Of a stretch of DNA of 56,256 bases, positions 26,313-41,843 are shown in pieces. The stretch is from IMG/VR virus record IMGVR_UViG_3300042528_000130, positions 1 through 56,256 of that record, one strand, 5' to 3'. The notes under the pieces were generated by a model. That model made no database searches and was not told the origin of the DNA. It worked only from the letters and a program-made list of their open reading frames with translations. The position numbers and the translations under genes were made by a program. The first letter of the stretch is position 1, and every line of letters begins with the position of its first letter. The stretch is from a virus.

Positions 26313-27797
26313 TCAGGCAGCAGCAGTCTGGAGAGCCACGATCGGGCCAGCCTTCGTGTTGTCGCCCAGATCGTGGGTGACAGCATCCCAGCGGGTCGTC
26401 GCGACCATCAGCGTTGCGTCCTGCTCGATCAGGCGATCCTCGCTCGTCTTGATCGTCAGGCCGCGACGAGTCGCGTAGATCGAGCTGAGCGAGAGGTCAC
26501 CGTAGAGCAGCTTGACCACGCCGGGGTCGGTGCCGATCACGTTCGACATCGTGTGGACGAAAACCACCGGACTGCCGAGCAGGCGAAGCTCAGCAGGAGC
26601 CGCGAGGTTCGCTGCGGTGTTGCCGCCAGCGAGGCCCACGTTGTTCACAAGGCCCAGCCGCTGCACGCTCGCAGCGAAGACCTGGGGATTCACGAACCAC
26701 TTGGCCTGAGCCCTCGCGTAGAGCGGGAGCCGACCCGCACAGGCGATCAGGTCGTCGATATCGAGGGTCAGGGCCGACGTGTTGCCCGCAGCAGCGGTCA
26801 CGAGACTGCCGTTGTGGGTGCCGTCCTTGATCTTCGTGCAGATGCCGATCATGCCGCCGTGATCAGAGACGCCGGTGCCTTGGAAGGCAACAGTGTCTAC
26901 GAGTTCCGCGATGGAGCGGCCCACTTCGCCGACCAAATAATCGGCCAAGTTAATTACGCTGTCTTCGAGCAGCTCCGAAGAGATGCGGTTTGCCACCGCG
27001 GTCTTCTTGCAGACAAGCTGCACGCGATCCCAGGCTGCGTCAGCCTCGGTCACATTCGTGTTTTCTCCCACGAAATATGCCTTGAGACCGCCCACTCGGC
27101 GCGGGATGATGAGCGTGTCGCTCTTCATCTGGATGTTCCGAGCGTTCGCGGGGAACGCCCCGAATTCCTCGACCAACACCAAGATCTCGTTGAGAACCTC
27201 ATCCTGCGCGAAAATTCCGCCCTGCGAATTGACGCCCTCGATCTGAGCCCGCGACTCGACGCCGTGATCGGCACACCACCGAGCGGCGTTCTTGTCGCCG
27301 AACAGCGAGGCCCGGAAGGCCATGCCAGCACGGTACGCACGCTCTTCAGCGTTCGCACCCTTGATGTTCTTCAGGCGACCAGCGCCGGGGAGATTGTGAT
27401 AGATCGACACCGAACGACCCTCCTTGGTGGATGCGGGACGGGCGACCGCCGATTCCTTGGCGGGCGTTGACTTGTCGAGGACGGCCCGGAGTTCAAGCTC
27501 CTTGGCGGCGACGCCCTCATAGAACGTGATCTTCTCGCGGAGCTTCTCAGCCCGCTCGCAGAGGCAGCGGAGCTTCTTCTCCTTCTCCTCGTCCTCGGGG
27601 ACGGCGCCTTCGGCGTCCTCAACCTCGGCGGGCTTGTAGCCCTTCTCCTCGACGTCGTCCTCGTCCTCGTCGCCTTCCGCCATCGCTTCGCCCATGCCGC
27701 GAGCAGCAGGAGCCTCCTCGTCCTGAAGGGCGCCCATCTCCGCCAGAACGGCGGCGAGTTCGTCGAGGAGAGACTTGATCTTGGCGGAGGCTTCCAT
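26313..27797 (-). CDS. HK97-fold major capsid protein with N-terminal scaffold domain
   Basis: The protein is 494 aa. Residues 1-130 are a highly charged coiled coil (EDEDDVEEKGYKPAEVEDAE; KKLRCLCERAEKLREKITFY), the delta/scaffold domain normally removed by the prohead protease. The shell domain begins about residue 175: VNSQGGIFAQDEVLNEILVL, then LIIPRRVGGLKAYFVGENTN, AWDRVQLVCKKTAVANRISS, and the C-terminal DRLIEQDATLMVATTRWDA. This matches the phage major capsid family in length and order. Upstream are the protease and the small zinc ribbon gene; a leader with a hairpin (27830-27849) precedes the ATG. Confidence 0.95.
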   Translation of the reverse strand: MEASAKIKSLLDELAAVLAEMGALQDEEAPAARGMGEAMAEGDEDEDDVEEKGYKPAEVEDAEGAVPEDEEKEKKLRCLCERAEKLREKITFYEGVAAKELELRAVLDKSTPAKESAVARPASTKEGRSVSIYHNLPGAGRLKNIKGANAEERAYRAGMAFRASLFGDKNAARWCADHGVESRAQIEGVNSQGGIFAQDEVLNEILVLVEEFGAFPANARNIQMKSDTLIIPRRVGGLKAYFVGENTNVTEADAAWDRVQLVCKKTAVANRISSELLEDSVINLADYLVGEVGRSIAELVDTVAFQGTGVSDHGGMIGICTKIKDGTHNGSLVTAAAGNTSALTLDIDDLIACAGRLPLYARAQAKWFVNPQVFAASVQRLGLVNNVGLAGGNTAANLAAPAELRLLGSPVVFVHTMSNVIGTDPGVVKLLYGDLSLSSIYATRRGLTIKTSEDRLIEQDATLMVATTRWDAVTHDLGDNTKAGPIVALQTAAA

Positions 27798-27909: not shown

Positions 27910-28072
27910 TTTCACGACGCCACGAACGCTCAGCAGTCACGATAGAGCGAGCCTGAGCGCCGCAGGAGTTGCACTTCAGGTAGCGAACCTGATGCTCGCC
28001 GCAGTTCTTGGACGTGCGAGTCGTGAGCCGTCCACGCCCGCAATGGCGACAGCGATCACCGCTAACAGTCAT
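27899..28072 (-). CDS. small zinc ribbon protein, 57 aa
   Basis: ATG 28072 overlaps the upstream stop (ATGA). The protein carries CRHCGRGRL at residues 8-16 and LKCNSCGAQARSIV at 32-45, two CxxC knuckles 24 residues apart, a classic zinc ribbon, with a basic C terminus (WRREKVV). It resembles short Ogr-like or transcription-associated zinc ribbons in form only. It lies immediately before the capsid gene and ends in a palindrome, so a role in late-gene control is conceivable. Confidence 0.65.
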   Translation of the reverse strand: MTVSGDRCRHCGRGRLTTRTSKNCGEHQVRYLKCNSCGAQARSIVTAERSWRREKVV

Positions 28073-29877
28073 TTACGCTTCTTTGCAATAGCCTCGACCG
28101 TAGACCCGATCACATGTCCCGCGAGGCCCGGAACAAATGGCGCGACAGTAGAAGCGACCAACACCCCTGCGTTATTGGCTGCGACTTTGAACCCCTTCTT
28201 GGTGAGCTGGTAGATGTAAGACGGCGACTGAGACTTCACGACGACGCTGACCTCTCGCGGTGCGTTCTCTTTTGCGATTGACTTCACGGCATCCATCTCT
28301 GACTGAGTCAGCTTTCCTGACTCGCGGGCTGGCGTGATGACAAGAGACTTGCCTGTTAGCTCGGCGTCGAAGATCTTCTTGCCGTCCTTGTCCTTGATCT
28401 TCAGAGTCAGAGACTTGCCCTTGATGTCTGCCGACGACTTCGGCGATCCGCCCAGGCTCTTCACGAGCGAAGCGACTTGCTTCTCGCTCGAACCGGCCTT
28501 TTGGATCGCCTTCATGACGCGAGTCGGCCGCATCTGGTTGTCGTAGAGCCCTTTCACGGCTCCGGCGACGGCTCCGGCGGCTGCGGCTTTCGGAACGAGC
28601 GGAGGAAACCACGTCGCGCCGAGCGTGGCGACTGCCGCGCCAGCCGCCCCTTTCGCGGCGCCGACTGCGACGTCGGCTGCGATCCCGCCAGCGCATGTGT
28701 TGCCCTTCTGGAATCCGCCGGAGCCGGTGCCGCAGTTTCGAGCTTCGGCAAACTCGGCGAGAGTCGGAATGCCGCTTCGCCGAGAGACCCACTCCCAAAA
28801 CTCGTTCGCGGAGCGGCCTTGGCGGGCGAGTCGCTTGGCAGCTTTCTTTCCGACTGCGACAGTCTCTTTGTATCGCTTGTAGCCTGGGCTGTTCTTGTCG
28901 GTGAAGTCGATCTCCATGTCCATCTGGTGGCCGTTCTTGTTCCACCACTCTTCGCCATCTGGCGTAGCGACGATGTCTTGGACTCGAACGCGCCCAGTGT
29001 TCAGCCACCTCTGGTACGCGCCGTCGGACAGGAGGCTGGAGCCTGTCTTTCGCATTGCCTCGTCGCTGAAGGAGGCAAATCTTTGCGAAGCAGAAACATC
29101 GACCTCTCCGTCAAACCCGAACTTCGGCCACAGCCGGTAGCCTTTAAAGCTTCCGTCTGGGCCTCCAGTGCTTCCGTGTCCGTATCCAGCAGCAAGAGTC
29201 GTGGCGTTTCGCATGCCGTTTCTCTCGGCAGCTTCTAGAGACTCAGCCATGAGCGCCAGGATCGAAGCAGAGACGGTTGCGACAGACACTCTCCCGTCTG
29301 CCATTGCCTGAAATGCCTTGTTCGTCGGAGAAAAGTAGTCGTAGTGAACCTCGCGATTTTTTCCGATCGTGACGGCCACTCTCGCGTCTCCGAGACTCGC
29401 GTCGCTGGGGTCTATTGGAGATCGTGTCTTGACTTCTATTTTCTGGCCGAGACTTGTGCGATCAATTGTGACTTCAGAACCTTTCGATGTGGCGGCGCCA
29501 ATCACGAGAATGTCAGACGGATCTTTGACTCCAGCCTTCTTGGCGATCTCCATCACCGCAGGAGGGTCGAGAATTTCCAGCGACTTCGCCTTCTTCGCCG
29601 AGTCAAACGGCGAACCGTGCTTGAGTTGCTTCTCGTCGTACTTCGCCGAGCTACCGTTTGGCGTGAGCCGAATCGAGTCCGGCAGTCTCGCGTATGGCCC
29701 GCGCCCACCTGAGCCACCACCAGCGCAGTTGTTGCCCTGGCCGAATCTTCCGCCTCCCTGCCGTCCGCAGCCGTCGTCTTGCGAAGGACGGTCGTCGAAC
29801 GAGAGACGCGTCTGCGAGTCTCGCGACTCCAGAAACGCGAGCAGGCTGGCGTATCGGCAATCCAGGGAGAGGCTCAT
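28069..29877 (-). CDS. multidomain head-operon protein with a Cys motif, WP-GFD module and Gly-rich membrane segment
   Basis: The protein is 602 aa. Order: short N terminus; Cys motif (GCGRQGGGRFGQGNNCAGG, about 36-54); a module about 65-375 containing GYRLWPKFGFDGEV, TPDGEEWWNKNG and SPGYKRYKETV, homologous to the modules repeated in the 2118-residue protein; a second Cys motif (CGTGSGGFQKGNTCAGG, about 382); a Gly/Ala-rich hydrophobic stretch (about 396-440: GAAKGAAGAAVATLGATWFP); a small alpha/beta domain ending LTKKGFKVAANN; a final hydrophobic helix (about 570-595) and KKRK. The layout suits a virion protein that meets a membrane. Function unknown. ATG overlaps the protease stop. Confidence 0.8.
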   Translation of the reverse strand: MSLSLDCRYASLLAFLESRDSQTRLSFDDRPSQDDGCGRQGGGRFGQGNNCAGGGSGGRGPYARLPDSIRLTPNGSSAKYDEKQLKHGSPFDSAKKAKSLEILDPPAVMEIAKKAGVKDPSDILVIGAATSKGSEVTIDRTSLGQKIEVKTRSPIDPSDASLGDARVAVTIGKNREVHYDYFSPTNKAFQAMADGRVSVATVSASILALMAESLEAAERNGMRNATTLAAGYGHGSTGGPDGSFKGYRLWPKFGFDGEVDVSASQRFASFSDEAMRKTGSSLLSDGAYQRWLNTGRVRVQDIVATPDGEEWWNKNGHQMDMEIDFTDKNSPGYKRYKETVAVGKKAAKRLARQGRSANEFWEWVSRRSGIPTLAEFAEARNCGTGSGGFQKGNTCAGGIAADVAVGAAKGAAGAAVATLGATWFPPLVPKAAAAGAVAGAVKGLYDNQMRPTRVMKAIQKAGSSEKQVASLVKSLGGSPKSSADIKGKSLTLKIKDKDGKKIFDAELTGKSLVITPARESGKLTQSEMDAVKSIAKENAPREVSVVVKSQSPSYIYQLTKKGFKVAANNAGVLVASTVAPFVPGLAGHVIGSTVEAIAKKRK

Positions 29878-32105
29878 CCGCGACGGGCCTTGAGGAATGC
29901 GACCGTCTCGCGAGCAACGCTGGCTGATCTGCGAGATGTCTTCGGCCGAGAGATCTTTTTCTCGAACACTCCCTTGCTCGACGAGTAGCCCCCAGGAGAT
30001 TTCGCGACAAGCTTGTACCCCTTCGAGGACAGAGTCTTGACGTCTTCATCTCTCCACGCCTCGACGGCGACGTGCTTTGCGTTCAGTGCTTTTGCAGACT
30101 TCTCGACAGTATCGAGGTTTGTGCCGCCGTCCTGAAAAGAAAAGAAAACGGAAGCGCCTTTCGGCTTGTCTCCGAAGATGCTGCTTGCCGTGATGAACGC
30201 ATGCCCGCCATTATGCGTCTCGATCATCAGCGTCTTTCCGTCTGCCGCGAATGACGAATACTTCACCTCTCCATTTGTCATAATGTCGGCGACCTTCTTT
30301 ATCTGTTCATCCGACACGCCTGCGCTCTCTTTAATAGCCTGATATCGCTTTCCCTTCGGGCCGTTCACGTTGCCGAAAAACTCAGCTACGGACACTGCGG
30401 CGTCGATTAGCGACCCAAACACTTTCCCGCCAATCCAACCTCCCGCTGCTCCGCCTACGACTCCAGCAACTCCACCGGCAAGTCCGCCTGCGGCCCCCAT
30501 GACTGCACCAATGCGGCTTGCCTTTGAAGAAAAGCTTTCCTTCTCAGCCTCCGGCGACGGCTCCTTCTTTGCGCTGCCTTTTCCGCCTCCAGCGCCGCAC
30601 GAATTATCCAGCCCGCCGCCTTCCCCCGTCGGGCAAAACGCCCGCCGTTCTGTAAGAAACTCTGCCATTTCTTTCTTAACGATTGCGGCCCGCTCTTTGA
30701 TCTCAGAGCGAGACTCGACCTTCTTCACGCCTTCGGCGACGAAGTGCTGGTAGCTCCGCTTCGCCACTGCGACAGTCGAGTCGCCGTAGGCTGGGTACGT
30801 GACGGGGCCGCAATCGAGGAGAGACTTGATCTTCGTCACAGTCCGAATCGAGCGGCCGTTCTCGGTCGTCCACTTTTCCCCGCCGTCTGCCACGACGAAG
30901 CTGAAGCTTGATCCACGCAAGTCGCCTCTTTCGATTAGCTCGGCCAAATCTTGGCGAGACTCCGGAAGCAGGCACTCGTACTTGAGCCCCTTCGTGTCGA
31001 CGATGAGCCGCATCGTCGTCGGGAAACGTCCGAGCAGATGATCGGGCGAGTGATTGAACAGGCAGCGAGTCTGAAGAGGCTGGCCTTCGCTGTCTTCTCG
31101 CTTCTCGACGATGTCGAACGCTTCCGGCGCAATCCGCTCGACAAAATCCCCCAGCAGCAACGAGTCCTTGTGGAAGCGGGCCGCATACCCGACAACGTAC
31201 GTGCGAGGCTTGCCAGTCGAAGGATCGGCGCGGCGCTCGACCCGCAGAAGCTCCGGGTCTGCCTTCTCGACGTGGCTGAAGTTGCCGAGAAATCGTCGCT
31301 CGACTCCAGGCGGCTCGGTCGCGCGACGTTCTTCCGCGAAGTATTCTTCGATCACTTTTCGCAACTCCTCTGCGTCTGGTTCGCCCTCGATCCGTCGAAG
31401 GCACTCGTCTTTCGTGGACTCGACGTGTACGTACTTGGTCGGAATGTCCGACAACTGCCTCTTCATCTCGTCGCTGACGTTCGTGGTGATGATCCACGTC
31501 TTGCAGTCGTTCGAGCCTGAAAGAGCCTTCTTCAGAATAAGATTTCTGATATCCAGACAATAAGAGACGAGCTTCTCGTTCCTGCCGCCTCCCGACAGGG
31601 CGGACATGACCTTGTAGAAGTCGAAGACGACGTCGTTCTCGCCCTTGTGCTTGGCAACATAGTCCTGCTTGCCGCTACCTGGGGCGCCATGCACGACGTA
31701 GACGTTTGGTTTCATGCCGTGCGACGAGCCGTACGGACGAAGATCGCGGCCCTCTTTCTCGTCGGCGGCGTTCATCTGCTCGACGACTTTCCGAGCCCAA
31801 GCGTAGCCATTCGGGCCACCCCAGAGCTTGTTGGCGATTAGCCCGTTGCTGGGCCATCCCTTGTCTCCCTTGAAGAATCCTTCGGCCTTCTCGTCTGACT
31901 GGTGCCGGTCGAAGAACGCTTTCATCCGTCGCAGCGTCGACGGCGATAGCTTCACCCCGTTCGCCAAGTCTCTCGCGCGAGCAATGCCGACGGCTGTGCC
32001 GCCGCGGCCGTATTCGCGGCGGAGCTTCAGGCCGTACTCGGCTTCCTTCTTGACGCCCTGCGGCGGCGTGAAGTCGATGTGGGAGTATTTTTCAGGAGTT
32101 GCCAT
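29874..32105 (-). CDS. prohead protease fused to a P-loop domain and a Gly-zipper tail
   Basis: The protein is 743 aa; typical S78 prohead proteases are 180-250 aa. Order: residues 10-130, a conserved phage domain (ARARDLANGVKLSPSTLRRM; WPSNGLIANKLWGGPNGYAW); about 131-265, a P-loop NTPase/kinase-like domain with Walker A-like GAPGSGKQ; about 270-460, the protease, with His in CLFNHSPDHLLGR and Ser in LRGSSFSFVV; a divergent Cys motif (CPTGEGGGLDNSC, about 491); a Gly-zipper membrane segment (about 520-565, AAGGLAGGVAGVVGGAAGGW); and an alpha/beta C-terminal domain (SSKGYKLVAKS) resembling that of the 602-residue protein. The protease should mature the capsid protein; the other parts may ride in the prohead. 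Walker A has Gln where Ser/Thr is usual. Confidence 0.85.
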   Translation of the reverse strand: MATPEKYSHIDFTPPQGVKKEAEYGLKLRREYGRGGTAVGIARARDLANGVKLSPSTLRRMKAFFDRHQSDEKAEGFFKGDKGWPSNGLIANKLWGGPNGYAWARKVVEQMNAADEKEGRDLRPYGSSHGMKPNVYVVHGAPGSGKQDYVAKHKGENDVVFDFYKVMSALSGGGRNEKLVSYCLDIRNLILKKALSGSNDCKTWIITTNVSDEMKRQLSDIPTKYVHVESTKDECLRRIEGEPDAEELRKVIEEYFAEERRATEPPGVERRFLGNFSHVEKADPELLRVERRADPSTGKPRTYVVGYAARFHKDSLLLGDFVERIAPEAFDIVEKREDSEGQPLQTRCLFNHSPDHLLGRFPTTMRLIVDTKGLKYECLLPESRQDLAELIERGDLRGSSFSFVVADGGEKWTTENGRSIRTVTKIKSLLDCGPVTYPAYGDSTVAVAKRSYQHFVAEGVKKVESRSEIKERAAIVKKEMAEFLTERRAFCPTGEGGGLDNSCGAGGGKGSAKKEPSPEAEKESFSSKASRIGAVMGAAGGLAGGVAGVVGGAAGGWIGGKVFGSLIDAAVSVAEFFGNVNGPKGKRYQAIKESAGVSDEQIKKVADIMTNGEVKYSSFAADGKTLMIETHNGGHAFITASSIFGDKPKGASVFFSFQDGGTNLDTVEKSAKALNAKHVAVEAWRDEDVKTLSSKGYKLVAKSPGGYSSSKGVFEKKISRPKTSRRSASVARETVAFLKARRG

Positions 32106-35100
32106 CGTCGCTCCATTCGTAATCGTCCAGATCCCCCTCGTCCCAAATCTCCTGCCACATTTCGTCGAGCCGCACGAGATCTGCTGGCGAGAGCCACTCG
32201 TCGCCGGAGCCGAGCGGCATGTCTCGTCTCTGTGCGCCGGAGCCGAACTTCCGGATAAACCTGTCCATGATCTTGGACTGCGGGCTCGACCTGTCCTTCA
32301 GGTTGAAGTAGACGTCCAAGTCTTCGCCGTTCTCGGCCCACCAGCGAGTTCCCTCGGGGGTGGCGTGCAGATCGAGCAGAGACTTGGCGTGAGACAAGTC
32401 TGGCGGGAGCTTGCTGACGAGGTGCTGCGGAAGTCGTGCGTCGAAACCCATGCGGGGCCAGATCGTGAAACCTCGCCAGGGATTGCTCGCCTTGCCTTTC
32501 CCAGAGTCGGCAGCGGCGCTTCCGGCGGCGTTGAGCGTGATCTGTGACGCACCGGCCTTGCGTGCTGACTCGACGCTCGACACCATCGTCCGGTAGAACG
32601 CTGCGGCGGCTGCGTGTCGCTTGGCTGGATCTCTGGCGATCTCGTCGGTGACGGTCGCTGTGTTCTGGAAAATGAGTACAGAGCCGTCTTCTCCCTTGCC
32701 GATCGCGGCTGAGTGATTCATCGCACCTTCGATGCCCGCGATGTCCGACTCGAAGTCGATGAAGACCGGAGTCTCTGAGAAGCCGAACCCGGAGCCGAAC
32801 TCAGTTCCAGGCCGCATGTAGACGTCAGAGTCCGGCGTTCCGCCTGCGGCTGCGACGGCAGTCGCGGCGTCGATGCCAGCCGATTCGAGGCTCGACTGCA
32901 CTCTCTGCGGAGCCTTGACGCTCACCGTGCCGTACTTGTCGGCGCCGTCGAACGGCGGCGGAGCGGTCTCGCGAGACGATGCTGGCCAGAGGATTTCGCT
33001 GTTCGACGACCAGCGGTCGTCTGATCCGGAGGCTGTGGCCGTGGCTGTGCCGTCTTCCTGGCACTTGTTGCCAGAGCCGAACTTGCCGTCCTCGTCACGG
33101 CCGCAGTCGGCAGACCTCTGCTCATCGTCCAGCGAATACTCGATCGTCTCTTCGTCGTAGTCGCGGCTCGTAATCTTTCTTGCGACGCGGCCTTGTGCCG
33201 TGATGACGACCGGCTTGACCTTCTTGACCTCGGAGATTGGGTATCCGTACTTTCCGTCAGGGCCGATGTAGTGCGGAGAGTCTTTTCCGACTCGATGCTG
33301 CTCGAAGTCGGCATCGAACTCTTCTTGAGTCTTGTAGAACTTCGGCTCGCCGATCTTCATGGTTCCGACGAGCGTCGCCTTGCCCTTTCCTGTGCGGACG
33401 ATTCCGACAGTCTTGCCGACGTACGGGCGAAGCGAGTTGGAGGGGCGAGTCTCTAAAGTCTTCTCTCCGGACAGAATCTGGCCCGTGAAGTCCTGATGCT
33501 TGTCGTTGATGTTGATGCCCATCTGGCACTTGTTGCCAGACCCGAACTTTCCGTCTTGGTCACGACCGCAGTCGGCGGAGCGAGACTCGACCAAATCCAG
33601 CGGCAGGAAGTTGCGTCGCTCTTCGACGTCGTCTTCGAGCGACTGAATCAAGGCCAGCACGTCGATGTCGAGGTCGGCGAAGTCCGCGTTCCACACCGAC
33701 TGTTCGACGTCGAGCGGATTGACGTCGAACTCCTCGTCTCGATCGTCGATCTCGCCCTGCTGCGCGTCTCGCCGAGAGGCGGGCGTAAACGGCTTGGCGC
33801 TCGGTTGATCTTTGCTTCTCGCGAGCCGTCCGCTGAGAACTCCATCGGCCGCGGCCGAGAAGAGCGAGTTGTCGGTGATGTTCGTCTGCGCGCCGAGGTG
33901 CTTCCAGAGCCGCTTCTCGTACTGCCAGAGCGCCGCCTGGATCTCGTCGATGTCGGCCTTGCGGCCGGTTCTGGCCTCGATCTCCGACTGCACGCGACGG
34001 AAGACTTCGCGAATGTTCTTTCTCGCCGTGCCGGTCTTCGGGTCTTGCTGCTCGTGAATCAGAGACTTGAACAGAGAGTTGCCAGCCTGATGCAGGGCAT
34101 GAATCTCTGGGTCTTCGTGCTTTCCGTATCCGCCGCCAGTGGGTCGGCGAGTCTTGCCGTGAGACCGCTCGGCGGCTGTCGCCCAGAGGAAAGCCGCGCC
34201 GTTCTCCTCGATCACGCCGGTCTTGGCCTGAATCTTCAGCGAGCGGACAAGCTGCTCTTTCGTAATGCCGTGAGTCTTGTCGACGCCGAACAGCTTCGCG
34301 CGGTTCCACTTTCCGGACTCGATCGCCTTGAGGATCGCCTCGGCCCGCTCCTTGGCCTGCTTCGGAGTCGATCGCGTTATGAGTTCTCCGGAGACCCGCC
34401 CGACAGACCTCATGAGCCAGCGATCCATCGTCAGGAAGTCGTGCTTCCCAGACAGGTTCGCAAAGAACGAGCCGATCTTCGGGCCGAAGATCGCCGCGAC
34501 CGGAACGACCTCATCGCGAAGCTCGCCTGACACCATCTGCTTTTGGTCGCCGCCTCGGTCGACAGGCAAAGACCACGCCGAAGCTCCGGTTCGCTGCTGC
34601 CACTCTTCTGCCTGCGACTTCCCGGCGAGCTTGGCGAGAGTCTTCTCGACGTTCCCAGCGGTAGTGTATCCGGACAAAAGCCGCCGAGTTCGCTCTTTGC
34701 CGAACGAGTCGAGCAGTCCCTGGAGTACTTTCAGCGACGCCGTGACGTCTCTTGCGCCGCCGCCGTAGTTCGACGGAACGACCGTACCGTGTTCGCGATA
34801 CATGCGATACAGGTCGTCGGCATCGCGGAGGTTCGCGTCTGGGCCTTGGCCCGTGCTAGTGATCGCGAGCAGCATCGTGAAGACGAACTTCGCGTCGTCG
34901 TCCGTCTCGAATTCCGGATACCTCGACGTCATCTTCTTCATCGTGTCGTCGAGGTCGGTGCTGTAGAACCCAGGGTCTACGCCAAGCACGTCATAGGCAT
35001 GCAGCGCGTCGTCTGTGAGGGACTCGGCGAGATAGTCCAGTTGGGCTTCGGGCAAGTCTGGCGACGCCGTGTCGATGATCGCGCCTGGGCCTGTCGCTCC

Positions 35101-38100
35101 AGTCTTCTGACGCTCTTCTTCGTGGCGATTCGCCAGGAACTGCCCGACTGCCTCGTGAGCAACGAACTGGCCGTTCTGCCGGTGAGTCTCAGGCGGAAAG
35201 ACAGGATCGCTCTCGGTGATCTTGTTCGTCGACTTGCCGCCGCGAGACACGAACGTGCGATCCCACAGGTCTGTCGTCGAGCCCGGAGTAGAGCCTTCCG
35301 GCTTGTTCGCCTTGAAGTCCGCGATCGCCCTGTCGCGAGCTTCTTTGTCGATGACCGCCACGGTCTTCTGACCGCCGATCATGACGTCGACGTTTCGCTG
35401 CTTGCCAGCTTTGGCCTCAGCCTGAACGCTCCCGGCCACGCCGCCTTCGCCGCCGCAGTCATTGCCCTGGCCGAACTGCCCGCCGTCCTGTCGATCTGCG
35501 TCGGTGCAGTCCCCGCGGAACTCAACGTCGTAGTCGTACCAGTTCCGGTTCTTGTTCCGCTCTTTCAGGCGAGTGAGAAGAGTCTTCATCTTCTTGTACC
35601 GCTTGTAGCCGAGACTCTTCTTGTCTTTGAATTTCAGCATCAGCGGGATGTTCTTACCGTTCTCGTCCCACCACTTCTTCCCCTCGGCAGACGAGATCAG
35701 CTCTTGAATCATCAGCGGCTCGCCTGAGTCGAGCTTGTCAACGATATCGAGAGCCCACTTCGGCGGATTGTCGTAGTTGTCCTCGCCTCGATTCGCGATC
35801 GCCTCCTCGGCAAACTCACGCAGCCCGTACGTATGAATCTTCCCCAGCTCGCCATCGAAGCCGAACTGTGGCCAGAGCCGGTAGCCCTTGAGCGGAGAGT
35901 GTGCGTCGCCAGCAGCCATCGTCTCGGCGTACTGAGCGCCGATGGACTCAGCCCTCGCAAGCGAGTCGGTCATCTTTTCGAGCAGCACGCTCGACACTCG
36001 TTTCACTGACTCTTCAGTGATCTCGCCGTCTTCCGGCCGGTCGACGTACATCTCGTCGTACGAGATCGCGAGCCCCTCTCCGTTGTCGAACATCGCGACG
36101 TTCACCTCGACGGCGCCGTCCTTGTTCGTGCCGTCGGGGGAGATCGGCATCGTGGAGTTCACGCGGATAACGTCTCCGTCGCCTTCGACGATGACTTTTC
36201 CGCCTTTGCGAACTCCGCCGCCGATCGCGACGACGTCGTCGAAAGACTTGAACGAGCCGATGTCGGTCATCGCGCTCGCCAGCTCGCCGACGTCCCTCAC
36301 AATGAAAGACTTGAGAACTTCGCCGCCGGTCACTGGCGGAGAGTCCTTGAGCTTGGCTCGGCCCCATTGGGCTTCGCCTTCGGACTCCCACCACGAATCG
36401 TCTGGCTTCGTTGCTGTCGCGGCGCCGCCATCTTCGGATGCGCAGTCGTTGCCTCGCCCGAACCGTCCGCCTTCTTGGCGACCGCAGTCGTCGCGGAATT
36501 CGACCTCGTCTTCGAGCCAGTCGATGATGCTCCGGTTCTTGTTTCGCTCCTTCAGGCGAGCGATGCGGGCCTTCATCTCCTCGTACCGCTTGTAGCCCAG
36601 GCTCGACTTGTCTCGGAAGTCGAACGTCAGGTCTGTGCCGCGGCCGTTGTCGTCCCACCACTTCTCGCCTTCGCGAGTCGCGATAAGCTGCTGGACTGTC
36701 AGCTCTTCCTTATCGAGCTGAGACTTCTGCGAGTCGTTGAGAGTGAGCTTCCCGTCGGCGATAGACTTCCGCAGCGCTTCGAGTCTGAATGATCGAAGCT
36801 TGGCGTCGAAGCCGAACTGCGGCCAGAGCCGGTAGCCCTTCGTGTTCGATTCTTTATTTCCAGCAGCGTACGTCGTCGCCCTGACGATCCCGCTCTTCTC
36901 GGCCAGACTCATCGACTCGGACATTCTCTGCATCAGCAGGCTGGCGATCTGAGACTGCTGGGCCTGCGACAGCTCAACCTCTCCTCCGCCGCTGTCCTGC
37001 GGGAACATCTCGCCGTAGTAGATCGTGCGCCCGCCGTTGTAGCCGCCGTCGTCCCACAGGAGGTCGATGTGCGTCATGACTTGCAGAGATTCGGGGTCGC
37101 TAGGTTCGAGGGGCAAGAACGAGTACGAAGACAGAGTCTCCCTGTTGCTGCTTGCCTTGAACTCCATCGAGCCGCCCTCTCTCGCGCCGCCTGAGAGCGT
37201 CGCAAGATCGTCGAGGGTGATCTGAAATGCCTTGAGCGCAGCGGCTGTGTTCTTTGGGGATTTGATCGTGACACTCTTGAGTCCGTCAGCCCCTGGAATG
37301 GCCAGCGGGGGCGACTCTTTAAGCTCTCTGCCGCTCATGGAGAGAGAGTCGTCTCCTGCGTTCTGCATCCAGCTATCATCGCGATCGCGAGCCTGGGGCT
37401 CGCTCGATCCGCCGCCGCCGCCAGCACAGTCGTTGTCTGCCGCGAACTGCCCGCCCTCAGTCCGGCCGCAGTCGAGGCCAGCCCGATACTCGACGTCATC
37501 GAGCCAATCGAAGTAGCTCCGCCTCTTGTTTCGCTCCTTGAGTCGCGGGAGCTTCGCCTTCATTTCCTCGAACCGCTTGAGGCCGAGCGAATCGCCGGAG
37601 AACTCGATTTTCATGTCGAGCGAGTCGCCGTTCTCGTCCCACCAGCGTTCGCCTTCGCGAGTCGAGATCAGCTCTTGAATGGTGAGGCTCTTGCGACTGA
37701 GCTTGCTGCTCTTCGCAACTCGCGGCGTCTTGTCGAGAATCTCTTTCGGAATCTTGGCGAACAGTTCCTGCGGGAGCTTCGCGTCGAAGCCGAACTGCGG
37801 CCACAGCCTGTAGCCCTTGTCCTTGCTGTCGGCAGAGCCAATGGCGAGCATCTGTGCGTGGCTGAAGCCTGCGTCGCTGGCCATGCTCATGGACTCCAGC
37901 ATGCGTTCCATCATCACGCTGGCGATGCGGTTCTGCGATGCTGCATCGAGATCGAGGCCGTCGTCTGGGAACATCGTGCCGTACTCGATGTACGACGAGC
38001 CGTTCTCCTTGCTGATCTCGATGCTCGACTCGACGCTGCCCTTGTCGGGATCGTCTGGGTCGATCGGGATCTGCGACGAGACAGAGATGTCGTTGTGCGA

Positions 38101-38448
38101 ATACGACGCCAGCCACATTTCTGCGCCGCGGATCGCGCCTCCTCCAAGCGTGACGATCTCGTCGATGTTCAGGCCGTGTTCAGACTGGGCGGTGCGGAAC
38201 TTCTTGACGTCTCGAATCGTGAGGGCTTCGAGCTTCTCGCCGCCCTTGACCGGGCTCGACTTCTTCAGGTCAGACGACGTCCACTCTTTCGTTCCGGACT
38301 CCTGCTTCCATGAGTCGTCCTTCGGGCGAGCAGCCACGGCTGTTCCGCCGCTGCCGGACGCGCAGTCATTTCTCGGCGCAAACTGCCCCCCGTCAGTCCG
38401 GCCGCAGTTGATGTCGGACGCCCTGAACTCTCGCTCGCGGAGAATCAC
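32092..38448 (-). CDS. 2118-residue multidomain (polyvalent-type) head-operon protein
   Basis: GTG 38448 overlaps the portal stop. Six Cys motifs divide it. Three homologous modules of about 300 aa come first, each with an N-terminal part (KSVTIKSPKN-like), GYRLWPQFGFDAKL, TREGEKWWDDNG and a basic SLGYKRYEEMKARIARLKER. Next, about 980-1600, a helical region with FLTMDRWLMRSVGRVSGE and NGAAFLWATAAERSHGKTRR, not recognised. Then about 1645-1760, an ASCH-like domain (FTGQILSGEKTLETRPSNSL, ISEVKKVKP). Last, a fourth module (FTIWPRMGFDARL, TPEGTRWWAENG). The modules have the look of a GNAT-type acyltransferase C terminus, but that is only resemblance. The architecture recalls polyvalent proteins, which are packed with DNA and delivered to the host. 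The frame is open throughout with uniform style. Confidence 0.82.
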   Translation of the reverse strand: MILREREFRASDINCGRTDGGQFAPRNDCASGSGGTAVAARPKDDSWKQESGTKEWTSSDLKKSSPVKGGEKLEALTIRDVKKFRTAQSEHGLNIDEIVTLGGGAIRGAEMWLASYSHNDISVSSQIPIDPDDPDKGSVESSIEISKENGSSYIEYGTMFPDDGLDLDAASQNRIASVMMERMLESMSMASDAGFSHAQMLAIGSADSKDKGYRLWPQFGFDAKLPQELFAKIPKEILDKTPRVAKSSKLSRKSLTIQELISTREGERWWDENGDSLDMKIEFSGDSLGLKRFEEMKAKLPRLKERNKRRSYFDWLDDVEYRAGLDCGRTEGGQFAADNDCAGGGGGSSEPQARDRDDSWMQNAGDDSLSMSGRELKESPPLAIPGADGLKSVTIKSPKNTAAALKAFQITLDDLATLSGGAREGGSMEFKASSNRETLSSYSFLPLEPSDPESLQVMTHIDLLWDDGGYNGGRTIYYGEMFPQDSGGGEVELSQAQQSQIASLLMQRMSESMSLAEKSGIVRATTYAAGNKESNTKGYRLWPQFGFDAKLRSFRLEALRKSIADGKLTLNDSQKSQLDKEELTVQQLIATREGEKWWDDNGRGTDLTFDFRDKSSLGYKRYEEMKARIARLKERNKNRSIIDWLEDEVEFRDDCGRQEGGRFGRGNDCASEDGGAATATKPDDSWWESEGEAQWGRAKLKDSPPVTGGEVLKSFIVRDVGELASAMTDIGSFKSFDDVVAIGGGVRKGGKVIVEGDGDVIRVNSTMPISPDGTNKDGAVEVNVAMFDNGEGLAISYDEMYVDRPEDGEITEESVKRVSSVLLEKMTDSLARAESIGAQYAETMAAGDAHSPLKGYRLWPQFGFDGELGKIHTYGLREFAEEAIANRGEDNYDNPPKWALDIVDKLDSGEPLMIQELISSAEGKKWWDENGKNIPLMLKFKDKKSLGYKRYKKMKTLLTRLKERNKNRNWYDYDVEFRGDCTDADRQDGGQFGQGNDCGGEGGVAGSVQAEAKAGKQRNVDVMIGGQKTVAVIDKEARDRAIADFKANKPEGSTPGSTTDLWDRTFVSRGGKSTNKITESDPVFPPETHRQNGQFVAHEAVGQFLANRHEEERQKTGATGPGAIIDTASPDLPEAQLDYLAESLTDDALHAYDVLGVDPGFYSTDLDDTMKKMTSRYPEFETDDDAKFVFTMLLAITSTGQGPDANLRDADDLYRMYREHGTVVPSNYGGGARDVTASLKVLQGLLDSFGKERTRRLLSGYTTAGNVEKTLAKLAGKSQAEEWQQRTGASAWSLPVDRGGDQKQMVSGELRDEVVPVAAIFGPKIGSFFANLSGKHDFLTMDRWLMRSVGRVSGELITRSTPKQAKERAEAILKAIESGKWNRAKLFGVDKTHGITKEQLVRSLKIQAKTGVIEENGAAFLWATAAERSHGKTRRPTGGGYGKHEDPEIHALHQAGNSLFKSLIHEQQDPKTGTARKNIREVFRRVQSEIEARTGRKADIDEIQAALWQYEKRLWKHLGAQTNITDNSLFSAAADGVLSGRLARSKDQPSAKPFTPASRRDAQQGEIDDRDEEFDVNPLDVEQSVWNADFADLDIDVLALIQSLEDDVEERRNFLPLDLVESRSADCGRDQDGKFGSGNKCQMGININDKHQDFTGQILSGEKTLETRPSNSLRPYVGKTVGIVRTGKGKATLVGTMKIGEPKFYKTQEEFDADFEQHRVGKDSPHYIGPDGKYGYPISEVKKVKPVVITAQGRVARKITSRDYDEETIEYSLDDEQRSADCGRDEDGKFGSGNKCQEDGTATATASGSDDRWSSNSEILWPASSRETAPPPFDGADKYGTVSVKAPQRVQSSLESAGIDAATAVAAAGGTPDSDVYMRPGTEFGSGFGFSETPVFIDFESDIAGIEGAMNHSAAIGKGEDGSVLIFQNTATVTDEIARDPAKRHAAAAAFYRTMVSSVESARKAGASQITLNAAGSAAADSGKGKASNPWRGFTIWPRMGFDARLPQHLVSKLPPDLSHAKSLLDLHATPEGTRWWAENGEDLDVYFNLKDRSSPQSKIMDRFIRKFGSGAQRRDMPLGSGDEWLSPADLVRLDEMWQEIWDEGDLDDYEWSDDGNS

Positions 38449-41400
38449 AGAGTCACCTTGTCGTCGGTGATCTCGTAGAACATCTGCATGACCTCGCCAG
38501 AGTAGTCGTGTCCAGACAATACGCCCGCGATAACCTCAGCTACGAACTCTCGTCCGTTCACGGCGGCGTACCGCGAGACTTCAGCCTCGATCATCGACCG
38601 CTGCTCGGCCGTGAACTCATGCGACAGAGACGTCGCGTATGAAGCTGGGTCGCTCTTCGCGTGTGTGCGATGGGCCAGTTCGTGGAGAACCGGATTCGGC
38701 TGCGATGTCCAGCCGTCACGCTCAAGCATCGAGGCGTCGGGCGAGACGTAGACCGCGTCTTCTTCTGACGAGTACGACGCCAGAAGCTGCCCGATCGAGC
38801 GGACTTCGATCTTAGGCAGAGAAGAGAAGTGGTTCGACGCAGCCGAGATCAAGCCTTGGGCTGCGCTTTCTCCGCCATAATCCGCTTCGCTGCATCTCGC
38901 AGTGCTTCTGCGATGTCCTTCGCCGCCATCCCCGGAGGGAAGTCGAAGCGAACGAGGTTCTTTTTTGGCTCTTGTTCGTCGGCCATCGTACTCTTCCTTT
39001 CGGATTTCCTTCTTCTCGTTGAGATCCCAGATCGCGAGCTGGCTCGTGCTTTCTGCGGAGTCGATCGCGTCGTCGATGCTGTCGAACTTCTCTGAGAGAT
39101 CGAGGTACACCTTGCCGGTGGCCTGATCGACCCAGCCCCCTAAGTGTAGCGTCGGACGCTCGCCGAAGTGGGATTTATTCTCTTCAAAAAATTTCGTGAT
39201 GGCTTCTTCCGTCACGTCGTCGGCCGAGTTCAAGATTGTCTCCGACTCTGGAACGACGCTGACCATGTAGCCAGACGTCGGACTGTTGGCGGCGACTGGA
39301 TGAACCGAGAAGCCGCCCGAGTCTCGGATGCTCTTGAGGGCCGCTTCCGTGACTTGGCCAGACTTGATTCCGCTGGAGCCAGATCCGTCTCCGCTGGCGC
39401 ACGTGTTCCCGCGGCCGAACCGGCCGCCATCAGCCCGACCGCAGTCGTCGCTGCGAGACTCTGGATTCGTAGTCTTAGTCTTGGAAAGCCAGGGCCTAGT
39501 CTTGAGGTGCTGGTAGCCCAGCGGCTCGTCTGAGTCTCGCCCGTTATCTTCAGCACGAGACTGCTTCTTCCGCTTGGCCAGCTCGCTGCGAATAACGTCG
39601 GCGCCGACCTTCGAGGCGTACGCGTTCTGCGGCGCGAAGTCGCCCGTAAGCTCGTAGACCGCGTTCTGGCCGAACGTCTCGGCGAACAGGGCTGGCCACG
39701 CCTCTTCGGGGAGAGTCGAGGCGTGCGTGAGCATGCCGTTGTACTCGCCGTTCGTCGAGAACGAGTAGCCGCCGCGGACGTGGGCCACGAGATCATGAAC
39801 GACCCGGAACAGGTCGTTCGCAATCATGGGCTCGCCATCGGAAGTCTTGAACTTCGTCTCGCGGAGCATCGGGTGGTTTTCGGTCGCGGAGCCAGTCCCG
39901 AATCCTCGTTCTGTCATGAAGAACTTAAACTCACCAGACTTGGCGACTTCTTCCCGCATCTTGTCCGAGTTGGGCTTCGTGCTTCCTGGCGGATCTCCGT
40001 AGGGCTCGCCTTCGCCTCGCCACGCACTGACTCGCAGGCCAGACTGCGTCAGGGCCTCGTACTGGCGACCGATCTCGTCGACGAGCGACGAGTACGCAGC
40101 TTCTGCCTCTGGCGAGAGCGGCTTTCCGCTCTGGGCATTCTGCTCCTGGGCGAACGTCTCGATCTGCTGCCGCGGCGGTGTCTCAGCTTTGCCCTTCGAG
40201 CGATCCCAGACTGAGGCTGGGTCTTTGCCGATCGAGGCCACGACGCTATCGACGGCGTCGCGATACGGCTTCGTGCCGGACGGAAAGGTGCGGTCGCTGG
40301 CCTCGGACTTCGGTGCCTTCGGAGACGACTCCTGCTCGCCCGGGCCTGCGCCGTCTTTCTTCGCGCAGTCGTTGCCCTGCCCGAAACGCCCGCCGTCTTG
40401 GCGACCGCAGTCGTTCGACCGCTTCTCTTCGACAGCTTCGACTTCCTGAAGATCAGGCTTCTTCTCGCTGGCTTGGCCCTGCTCGGCAGGATTCGGAGAC
40501 TTGCCAGTCTTGACCTCTGGAAGACTCGGCACGCCACCGGCAGCTTCCGGCGGGGCTCCGGCTCCAGCTCCAGCTCCACCCATCATCGCAGCCATCGGAT
40601 CTGGCTTCGGCTTAACAGCATCTTCGAGCGTCTGCATGTTCATGCCGACGAAGTGCTTGTCGCCGTTCTCGACCGGAGCGAGCCCCTCGGCGCGGCGGCA
40701 GTCGTTGATCGAGTAGATGCCGAGATTCGTCATCGTCGAGTAGAACGACGCGCGGCTGTTCGAGTTGCCTCGCATCAGCCCCTTCGTGTCGAACTCGGCG
40801 AAGAACACGTCGTCGTTGTAGATCAGCGACCGCGAGATAGCCGACTCGATTCGACGGAGCCACGGCAGCAGCGTGTAGGTGACGAACTCTTGGCCCTGAG
40901 TCTCCAAGTCTCCGCCGCTCTGGCCCTGCACGAGCGCGAGTGGCAACCTGTAGATTCGCGCGATTTCTTCGCTCTGAAATCTCCGGCTATCTATGAACTG
41001 ACTCTGCTCTTGCGAGAACCCGATGGGCTCGGCTTTCAGGCCGTTTGTGAGGACTGCCGTCCGGAAAGCTCGGTCAACGCCCCTATGAAGTCTCTCCCAA
41101 TTGTCGCGGAGTCGCTCGGCCGCTTCGGGCGAGAGCGATCCGTCCGTCTGAAGCACGACGCCAGGGCGAGCCGAGTTCGCCCAGTACTTCGACGCGTGAA
41201 TCTCACACGCTCTCGCCAGGGCGATCGCCTCGCGGCCGACTTCGACCGGCACCATGCCCTTGATGCCGTCAGGCTCGGGAGTCCAGCGGACGTGCATGAC
41301 CTGATCTTGCGTGTACCGCTCCAGTCTTCCGGTCTCCGGATTCGTGTAGCTGTACCGGAGTCGGCCGTTTTCGAGACGCTCGACCTCCATCCGGCTCGGA

Positions 41401-41843
41401 TGAAGATTGTCGAGGGCGCTCACGGCTCCGTACTTGCCAGACCGAATCAGGCTGTACGAGTTCCCCCACAGAGTCAGGAACATGACGATCTGCTCGAAGA
41501 ACTCGAACTTCGTCTGCCACTCGTTGGGCGCGAACGACAAGACTTTGTAGAGCGGCAAGTCTGTGGCTGGCTCTTTGCCGCCGTCCTTCGTCCGACGCAT
41601 GACGTGCAGAGGCAGGCCCGAGATCGTCTCGGCGAGAATCCGGCAGCAGGCCAGCACGACAGTGGACTGGAGGGCGCTGTCTGGCGTGATCCGGACTTCC
41701 GCGGCTGTGCGCGAGCGTCCGAGATACGGCTCGTCGCTCGTGAGAAAGTTATTCCAGAGAATGCTCCGGAACTCAGGCTCTGGAGTGGTCAGGCCGCGTT
41801 CGGGTGTCCAGACAATGTCGGACAGGGCTCGCTCTTCGCTCAC
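38445..41843 (-). CDS. portal protein fused to polyvalent-type domains and a metallopeptidase
   Basis: The protein is 1132 aa; HK97-type portals are about 400. Residues 1-400 are the portal (AAEVRITPDSALQSTVVLAC, GNSYSLIRSGKYG, VMHVRWTPEPDGIKG, then IARIYRLPLALVQGQSG). A Pro/Ala linker and Cys motif follow (about 495). Residues 510-780 contain FRVVHDLVAHVRGGYSF and ALFAETFGQNAV, a motif set I recall from large phage polyvalent proteins. After a second Cys motif (about 817) comes HLGGWVDQATGKVYLDLSEK with QLAIWDL. The end, about 990-1132, is a zincin: VLHELAHRTH and EFVAEVIAG. Around residues 952-998 the frame is Arg-rich and another frame reads better (see 38849-38986), so this may really be several genes. 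GTG 41843 overlaps the terL stop. Confidence 0.85.
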   Translation of the reverse strand: MSEERALSDIVWTPERGLTTPEPEFRSILWNNFLTSDEPYLGRSRTAAEVRITPDSALQSTVVLACCRILAETISGLPLHVMRRTKDGGKEPATDLPLYKVLSFAPNEWQTKFEFFEQIVMFLTLWGNSYSLIRSGKYGAVSALDNLHPSRMEVERLENGRLRYSYTNPETGRLERYTQDQVMHVRWTPEPDGIKGMVPVEVGREAIALARACEIHASKYWANSARPGVVLQTDGSLSPEAAERLRDNWERLHRGVDRAFRTAVLTNGLKAEPIGFSQEQSQFIDSRRFQSEEIARIYRLPLALVQGQSGGDLETQGQEFVTYTLLPWLRRIESAISRSLIYNDDVFFAEFDTKGLMRGNSNSRASFYSTMTNLGIYSINDCRRAEGLAPVENGDKHFVGMNMQTLEDAVKPKPDPMAAMMGGAGAGAGAPPEAAGGVPSLPEVKTGKSPNPAEQGQASEKKPDLQEVEAVEEKRSNDCGRQDGGRFGQGNDCAKKDGAGPGEQESSPKAPKSEASDRTFPSGTKPYRDAVDSVVASIGKDPASVWDRSKGKAETPPRQQIETFAQEQNAQSGKPLSPEAEAAYSSLVDEIGRQYEALTQSGLRVSAWRGEGEPYGDPPGSTKPNSDKMREEVAKSGEFKFFMTERGFGTGSATENHPMLRETKFKTSDGEPMIANDLFRVVHDLVAHVRGGYSFSTNGEYNGMLTHASTLPEEAWPALFAETFGQNAVYELTGDFAPQNAYASKVGADVIRSELAKRKKQSRAEDNGRDSDEPLGYQHLKTRPWLSKTKTTNPESRSDDCGRADGGRFGRGNTCASGDGSGSSGIKSGQVTEAALKSIRDSGGFSVHPVAANSPTSGYMVSVVPESETILNSADDVTEEAITKFFEENKSHFGERPTLHLGGWVDQATGKVYLDLSEKFDSIDDAIDSAESTSQLAIWDLNEKKEIRKEEYDGRRTRAKKEPRSLRLPSGDGGEGHRRSTARCSEADYGGESAAQGLISAASNHFSSLPKIEVRSIGQLLASYSSEEDAVYVSPDASMLERDGWTSQPNPVLHELAHRTHAKSDPASYATSLSHEFTAEQRSMIEAEVSRYAAVNGREFVAEVIAGVLSGHDYSGEVMQMFYEITDDKVTL
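38849..38986 (-). CDS. nested 45-aa gene candidate inside the portal fusion
   Basis: ATG 38986 with GGAAG upstream opens a frame (MADEQEPKKNLVRFDFPPGM, then AAKDIAEALRDAAKRIMAEK) that looks like a normal helical protein, while the portal frame over the same bases is Arg/Gly/Ser-rich and improbable. It ends TTGA, where a TTG could start the metallopeptidase. So the 1132-residue frame may hide portal-plus-domains, this gene, and a separate zincin, in three coupled cistrons, or a pair of frameshifts joining them. Confidence 0.5.
   Translation of the reverse strand: MADEQEPKKNLVRFDFPPGMAAKDIAEALRDAAKRIMAEKAQPKA

Follow-up and report, generated by a model that had tools for sequence, protein, structure and literature searches.

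The window analysed here, the entire 56,256-base IMG/VR record IMGVR_UViG_3300042528_000130, carries a phage head operon in which four large proteins are punctuated by a cysteine-bounded motif (CGRxxGGxFGxGNxCA). We consider it quite probable that these are head effector polyproteins which the prohead protease cleaves immediately ahead of the motif, such that each released module would start with a Cys loop. The minus-strand head genes are TerL, the portal fusion, a 2118-residue protein, an S78 prohead protease fusion, a 602-residue protein and an HK97-type major capsid protein (MCP), followed by tail genes; the effector fusions are encoded between TerL/portal and MCP, and the protease (PF04586, E 2.9e-30) is in the same operon as its predicted substrates. 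The five proteins concerned are as follows.

38445..41843, minus strand: portal fusion, 1132 residues, with a PF04860 portal (residues 62-387), a motif, an HDLVAH module, a motif and a HELAH zincin-like module.
32092..38448, minus strand: 2118-residue polyprotein, with a 14-residue leader, six motifs, four GNAT-like modules, one 628-residue module and one ASCH-like module.
29874..32105, minus strand: S78 prohead protease fusion, 743 residues, with a P-loop kinase-like N-terminal part, a gp21-like protease domain (about 268-437), a motif and a C-terminal module with a Gly-rich helix.
28069..29877, minus strand: 602-residue protein, with a helical leader, a motif, a GNAT-like module, a motif, and an Ala/Gly-rich helix plus a small alpha-beta domain.
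26313..27797, minus strand: HK97-type major capsid protein (PF05065).

The initial annotation of this DNA counted about eleven motif copies, and a six-frame scan of the window recovers 11, every one of them in the four proteins that it named, with two in the portal fusion, six in the 2118-residue protein, two in the 602-residue protein and a single divergent one in the protease fusion. Shuffled sets of the four proteins yield 0.0005 pattern matches per set, and motif cysteines make up 22 of the 34 Cys in the four proteins. The spelling given above fits most copies but not all, as the copy at 28693 is shorter (CGTGSGGFQKGNTC), that at 35455 has three extra residues (CTDADRQDGG...), and the protease copy lacks both CGR and the Phe; a Gly/Ser linker follows the motif, as had been described. 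The copies are listed here with their predicted cuts, marked by an arrow.

40365..40409, minus strand: motif CGRQDGGRFGQGNDC of the portal fusion; predicted cut EEKR↓SNDC (R475, codon 40419-40421).
39399..39443, minus strand: motif CGRADGGRFGRGNTC of the portal fusion; predicted cut PESR↓SDDC (R797, codon 39453-39455).
38362..38406, minus strand: motif CGRTDGGQFAPRNDC of the 2118-residue protein, behind the N-terminal leader; predicted cut REFR↓ASDINC (R9, codon 38422-38424).
37426..37470, minus strand: motif CGRTEGGQFAADNDC of the 2118-residue protein; predicted cut VEYR↓AGLDC (R322, codon 37483-37485).
36442..36486, minus strand: motif CGRQEGGRFGRGNDC of the 2118-residue protein; predicted cut VEFR↓DDC (R652, codon 36493-36495).
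35455..35508, minus strand: motif variant CTDADRQDGGQFGQGNDC of the 2118-residue protein; predicted cut VEFR↓GDC (R978, codon 35515-35517).
33526..33570, minus strand: motif CGRDQDGKFGSGNKC of the 2118-residue protein; predicted cut VESR↓SADC (R1623, codon 33580-33582).
33061..33105, minus strand: motif CGRDEDGKFGSGNKC of the 2118-residue protein; predicted cut DEQR↓SADC (R1778, codon 33115-33117).
30597..30635, minus strand: divergent motif CPTGEGGGLDNSC of the protease fusion, following its protease domain; predicted cut TERR↓AFC (R488, codon 30642-30644).
29725..29769, minus strand: motif CGRQGGGRFGQGNNC of the 602-residue protein, behind the helical leader; the closest E-x-R, in LESR↓DS, lies about 17 residues upstream (R19, codon 29821-29823).
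28693..28734, minus strand: motif CGTGSGGFQKGNTC of the 602-residue protein; predicted cut AEAR↓NC (R380, codon 28738-28740).

The usual upstream pattern is E-x-R followed by zero to four residues, of which the last is D or N, and the first motif Cys. Such an E-x-R is present at most 10 residues upstream of 10 of the 11 motifs, and about 17 residues upstream of the eleventh, against a background of just 35 E-x-R in the 4595 residues of the four proteins. These sites resemble the predicted maturation site of the capsid protein of the same phage, where the capsid alignment reads VE(S/A/T)R↓A at the scaffold boundary. We take the window site, VESR↓A, to be the equivalent of HK97 K103↓S104. Further candidate sites, without a motif, flank the catalytic domain of the protease.

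27249..27251, minus strand: R183 of the MCP, predicted P1 residue of scaffold-domain cleavage (GVESR↓AQ), at a conserved boundary in the capsid alignment.
30708..30710, minus strand: R466 of the protease, in VESR↓SEIK just past the catalytic domain; candidate autoprocessing site without a motif.
31230..31328, minus strand: E-x-R cluster (R260, R271 and R292) ahead of the catalytic domain; candidate autoprocessing sites.

The earlier proposal that the motif is a joint cut by the prohead protease is thus upheld in part: the resemblance to the capsid site and the covariation described below favour such a cut, but it is predicted to fall a few residues upstream, after R or K, and not inside the motif. 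In the mechanism that we propose, effector modules placed in series after the portal, after the prohead protease or after a short N-terminal leader would end up in the prohead. There, the S78 protease that would remove the MCP scaffold domain at VESR↓A would also cut a few residues ahead of every motif, at E-x-R↓ or, in related phages, at x-x-K↓. The released module would begin with a short stretch, then (D/N)-C-G-[R/T]...G-G-x-F...G-N-x-C and a flexible Gly/Ser linker, and would remain in the head with the DNA until delivered to the host. We infer the cutting, packaging and delivery from sequence, and position, homology and covariation all speak for the proposed cut-site rule. Many open reading frames (ORFs) with an early motif begin, from their predicted start codons, with a short leader, the site and the motif (e.g. 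MPHWVDRFVLASLK↓NCGTG in L163, and MILREREFR↓ASDINCGR in the window), and free-standing modules likewise keep short leader, cut site and motif. Placement inside the prohead, for which the motif itself had been suggested as a tag, is more easily explained by fusion to the portal or protease or by a short N-terminal leader.

Pattern scans find at least about 600 motif copies in at least about 290 IMG/VR contigs, which are fragments of uncultured phages; all cross-contig counts given here are drawn from the motif matches listed. There are three spellings, CGRxxGGxFGxGNxC, CGTGxGGFxxGNxC and CPTGEGGGxDNSC, which have in common a Cys at both ends, richness in Gly, a conserved Asn and a Gly/Ser-rich stretch afterwards; Cys, Gly, Phe and Asn are almost invariant in the approximately 600 copies. 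The residue at the predicted motif site covaries with P1 of the capsid protein: at the contig level both are R in 54 contigs and both K in 11, with the mixed pairs RK in eight and KR in one (Fisher 1.9e-7). The KR contig has only a capsid paralogue. A strict test using CGTG copies with a basic residue exactly at -2 gives 58, 11, two and zero for the same four classes. We note that L061, L075, L083, L093, L099, L139, L149 and L173 have two adjoining capsid-like genes, each with its own boundary site.

The residue at -2 also differs with head type, being R or K in 47 of 56 PF04860 portals vs three of 17 lambda-type portals, where it is mostly L, F, E or A and the motif core is unchanged. Pfam names no prohead protease beside the lambda-type portals, where the adjoining gene is protease-like by eye only. 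The upstream residue thus follows head type and the core stays constant, which suggests for the core a role beyond recognition by a protease. It is possible, though rather doubtful, that the motif is a docking element that guides the prohead protease to non-capsid substrates and has no role after the cut, a variant of the cutting mechanism proposed above that would account for its position just C-terminal of the predicted cut and for its absence from the capsid protein, which is at high local concentration; however, the same core is kept with lambda-type portals, different upstream residues and apparently other protease types, and some E-x-R sites around the protease have no motif. Because the constant motif is kept in phages with a different cut-site residue and apparently a different protease, it probably acts after the cut, as a tag or small loop. 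We propose more tentatively, and at somewhat less than even odds, that the Cys loop serves as a general N-terminal tag which prohead proteolysis exposes, which is shared across phages with unrelated proteases and portals, and which acts on the released effector; it may, for example, retain the effector on the DNA or head lining, help it to thread through portal and tail, or activate it in the host. If so, the Cys loop would be a delivery signal for head-packaged effectors and a search key for new ones. The CPTGEGGG motifs of L271, L272, L282 and L311 follow Y/F/H-A-F, in contigs seemingly with another portal type.

The R/K agreement could instead come from genome composition and shared ancestry, with no part for protease specificity, and the K-type contigs are indeed essentially one clade and one more lineage. 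The K and R contigs were partly chosen on the motif side, such that the capsid side is independent but the K-type share of the sample is altered. Against such an origin of the agreement, composition predicts 38.9 concordant contigs of 74 where 66 are observed (maximum 57 in 200,000 simulations), and the upstream peptides of the K clade differ from one another (VQTK, MEQK, TELK, ARAK, SITK and others) yet K stands at -2 in every one but a single peptide with K at -4, so that we regard this explanation as quite unlikely.

Several observations weigh against cleavage before the motif by the capsid-processing protease. The capsid tree needs three changes to K at P1 (one nine-member clade, L163 and one set-aside paralogue), and as K at P1 has only about two independent lineages, the covariation P values overstate the case. 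The capsid protein has no motif, and its predicted cut does not require one. P3 is Glu in only about half of the copies, and in some CPTGEGGG copies the residue before A-F-C is N, Y, F or H and not R/K, as expected if other proteases cut them. The main exception is a clade with VESR-type capsids (L036, L046, L057, L067, L103 and L120), in which a Lys-rich protein carries a single motif close to its N-terminus with no E-x-R ahead of it.

AlphaFold models, built with 20 sequences for the 602-residue protein and with 17 for the protease fusion, have all of their motifs in stretches with pLDDT below 50 between folded modules. In both models the motifs and E-x-R sites lie in or next to disordered linkers, and they flank the protease domain. 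This disorder makes the motif a boundary element and not part of a fold, in agreement with the initial annotation; integration into one known fold, which would have argued otherwise, was looked for and is ruled out by both models. A zinc knuckle or zinc ribbon with three or four ligands does not fit, as each copy has two Cys and none of the three spellings has a conserved His; a metal may be shared between two motif copies. A stand-alone metal or disulfide knuckle, which the initial annotation had offered as a guess, may exist, with just two Cys per copy and a disordered model at that place. With just 11-16 residues between the motif Cys, an intein or splicing domain is excluded. A structural connector, with its two Cys disulfide-bonded or metal-bound in a small loop that acts as a spacer between domains of an intact head protein and has no link to cutting, would fit the near-invariant Cys, Gly, Phe and Asn, which exceed the needs of a cut site or spacer; but the disorder in both models counts against it, and it leaves unexplained both the upstream residue that tracks the capsid maturation site and the leader, site and motif on free-standing modules, so that we regard it as quite unlikely.

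When ORFs are cut at the motifs and the pieces clustered with a mutual coverage rule, the same modules recur in different orders; a GNAT-like module has many neighbour pairs, and many different modules lie directly behind PF04860 portals. Pfam-named modules in relatives include ADPrib_exo_Tox, ART-PolyVal, PARP and Zeta_toxin, and the motif joins portals or prohead proteases to shuffled ADP-ribosyltransferase (ART), zeta-like kinase, GNAT-like and zincin-like modules. Among loci at least 8 kb long, 191 of the 207 motif ORFs have a recognised head gene no further than 8 kb away. This shuffling in many orders is what a recombination joint would give, a short conserved sequence for module swapping with no role in the protein, but such a joint is very improbable given the very strong protein conservation and synonymous positions free to differ among copies of one genome, by which DNA identity is not kept. 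Synonymous codons vary freely among the window's motif copies, which rules out a DNA recombination site and indicates that selection acts on the protein. A strict-motif genome scan for prophages gave two matches, neither in a long open frame and both attributable to chance, and tblastn with the motif peptide against isolates and plasmids gave zero matches, with a query probably too short to be informative.

In architecture and gene context the four predicted proteins fit the polyvalent proteins, a class of large phage proteins that combine several domains (ART, kinase, GNAT, metallopeptidase), are encoded among virion genes and are expected to be packaged and injected (2017 survey, PMC5512222). 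Several distinct effector-type domains are present per polypeptide, with four GNAT-like, one ASCH-like and one 628-residue module in the 2118-residue protein, and ART, zeta and PARP-type modules in relatives. Polyvalent proteins have been likened to viral polyproteins, with domain release ascribed to embedded metallopeptidases, and a search of that survey turned up no linker, cysteine or glycine-rich joints (PMC5512222); here, in contrast, a defined motif joint stands behind a prohead-protease-like site. In T4, a short N-terminal propeptide brings effectors, including the injected ADP-ribosyltransferase Alt, into the prohead and is removed by the prohead protease (PMC9026906). The layout of leader and predicted protease site is the same, but T4 has one effector per gene, whereas the modules described here are in series or behind a portal or protease, with a Cys loop after the site. 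The Pro protease of phage P1 cuts both the MCP scaffold domain and the packaged anti-restriction protein DarA, a precedent for one protease acting on capsid and packaged protein, although DarA has a single N-terminal cut and, in the parts of that source consulted, no repeated motif is reported (PMC12810830).

We know of no effector fusions of this kind in HK97. Its gp4/gp5 share with the window a prohead protease, an MCP scaffold domain and a basic P1, the K103↓S104 cleavage having been established experimentally (PMC10275583). ART, Nudix and 2H domains are fused to portal, MuF or capsid-processing peptidase, the same structural partners, in a study whose consulted sections describe no cut site or joint motif (PMC9503650). 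Effector fusions to portals and proteases are therefore already known, and the predicted Cys-motif joint was not found in the literature searched; six motif strings had no occurrence in open-access literature text. For the question of how chained or portal-tied enzymes come free in the virion, for which only the embedded-metallopeptidase idea has so far been offered, a protease site with a constant tag provides a checkable rule, and the expected cut-site residue can be read from the capsid protein of the same phage. Each module behind a motif becomes a candidate head-packaged effector, including folds unrecognised by family libraries, in uncultured phages.

The modules between the motifs are named from profile or fold matches, several of them below cut-off.

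28735..29724, minus strand: GNAT-like (WPxFGFD) module of the 602-residue protein; sister copies at 37471-38361, 36487-37425, 35509-36441 and 32095-33060.
33106..33525, minus strand: ASCH-like module, below the Pfam cut-off.
33571..35454, minus strand: 628-residue module, 27-28% identical to segments of giant virion proteins from Limnohabitans phage DC33 and from two Manatee Spring phages.

Five WPxFGFD/WW modules had been proposed, and four are indeed found in the 2118-residue protein, 21-29% identical to the one in the 602-residue protein. For the folded core of the latter, the VIA-align rows listed are acetyltransferase-type folds (Z at most 7.0), Foldseek E values are 0.01 or worse, and there is no Pfam match. 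Of the other labels proposed, ASCH-like has a weak match only (17.5 vs the Pfam cut-off of 21.2 bits); for the HELAH zincin, the HExxH and a downstream Glu are invariant in nine relatives, but the MPTase-PolyVal match is weak (E 0.036, 14.6 vs 27.5 bits). The HDLVAH module matches PHROG 3170, a family with no assigned function, and no useful match came from searching PDB sequences with profiles of the GNAT-like, zincin-like and HDLVAH modules. The 628-residue module has counterparts in giant podophage virion proteins. We note that the 39 kb Limnohabitans phage DC33 (L257, PQ492659.1) is filed as Inoviridae yet encodes a virion-type protein of about 3100 residues, and the taxonomy label looks wrong.

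Window positions 26000-50000 have no DNA match to isolate phages at megablast level, the 602-residue protein has zero isolate relatives at E 1e-5, and the 2118-residue protein has three, through a single module only. In the model of the protease fusion, the protease domain has T4 gp21 as a match (E 1.3e-4), while elsewhere in the model there are matches to P-loop kinases such as polynucleotide kinase (E about 1e-3). Residues of about 130-260, ahead of the catalytic domain, have a polynucleotide/adenylate kinase-like fold and also match PHROG 4581, annotated as terminase small subunit. The final modules of the 602-residue protein (28072-28692) and the protease fusion (29877-30596) both begin Ala/Gly-rich and have a similar helix/strand order, and are perhaps a membrane-active pair of related modules.

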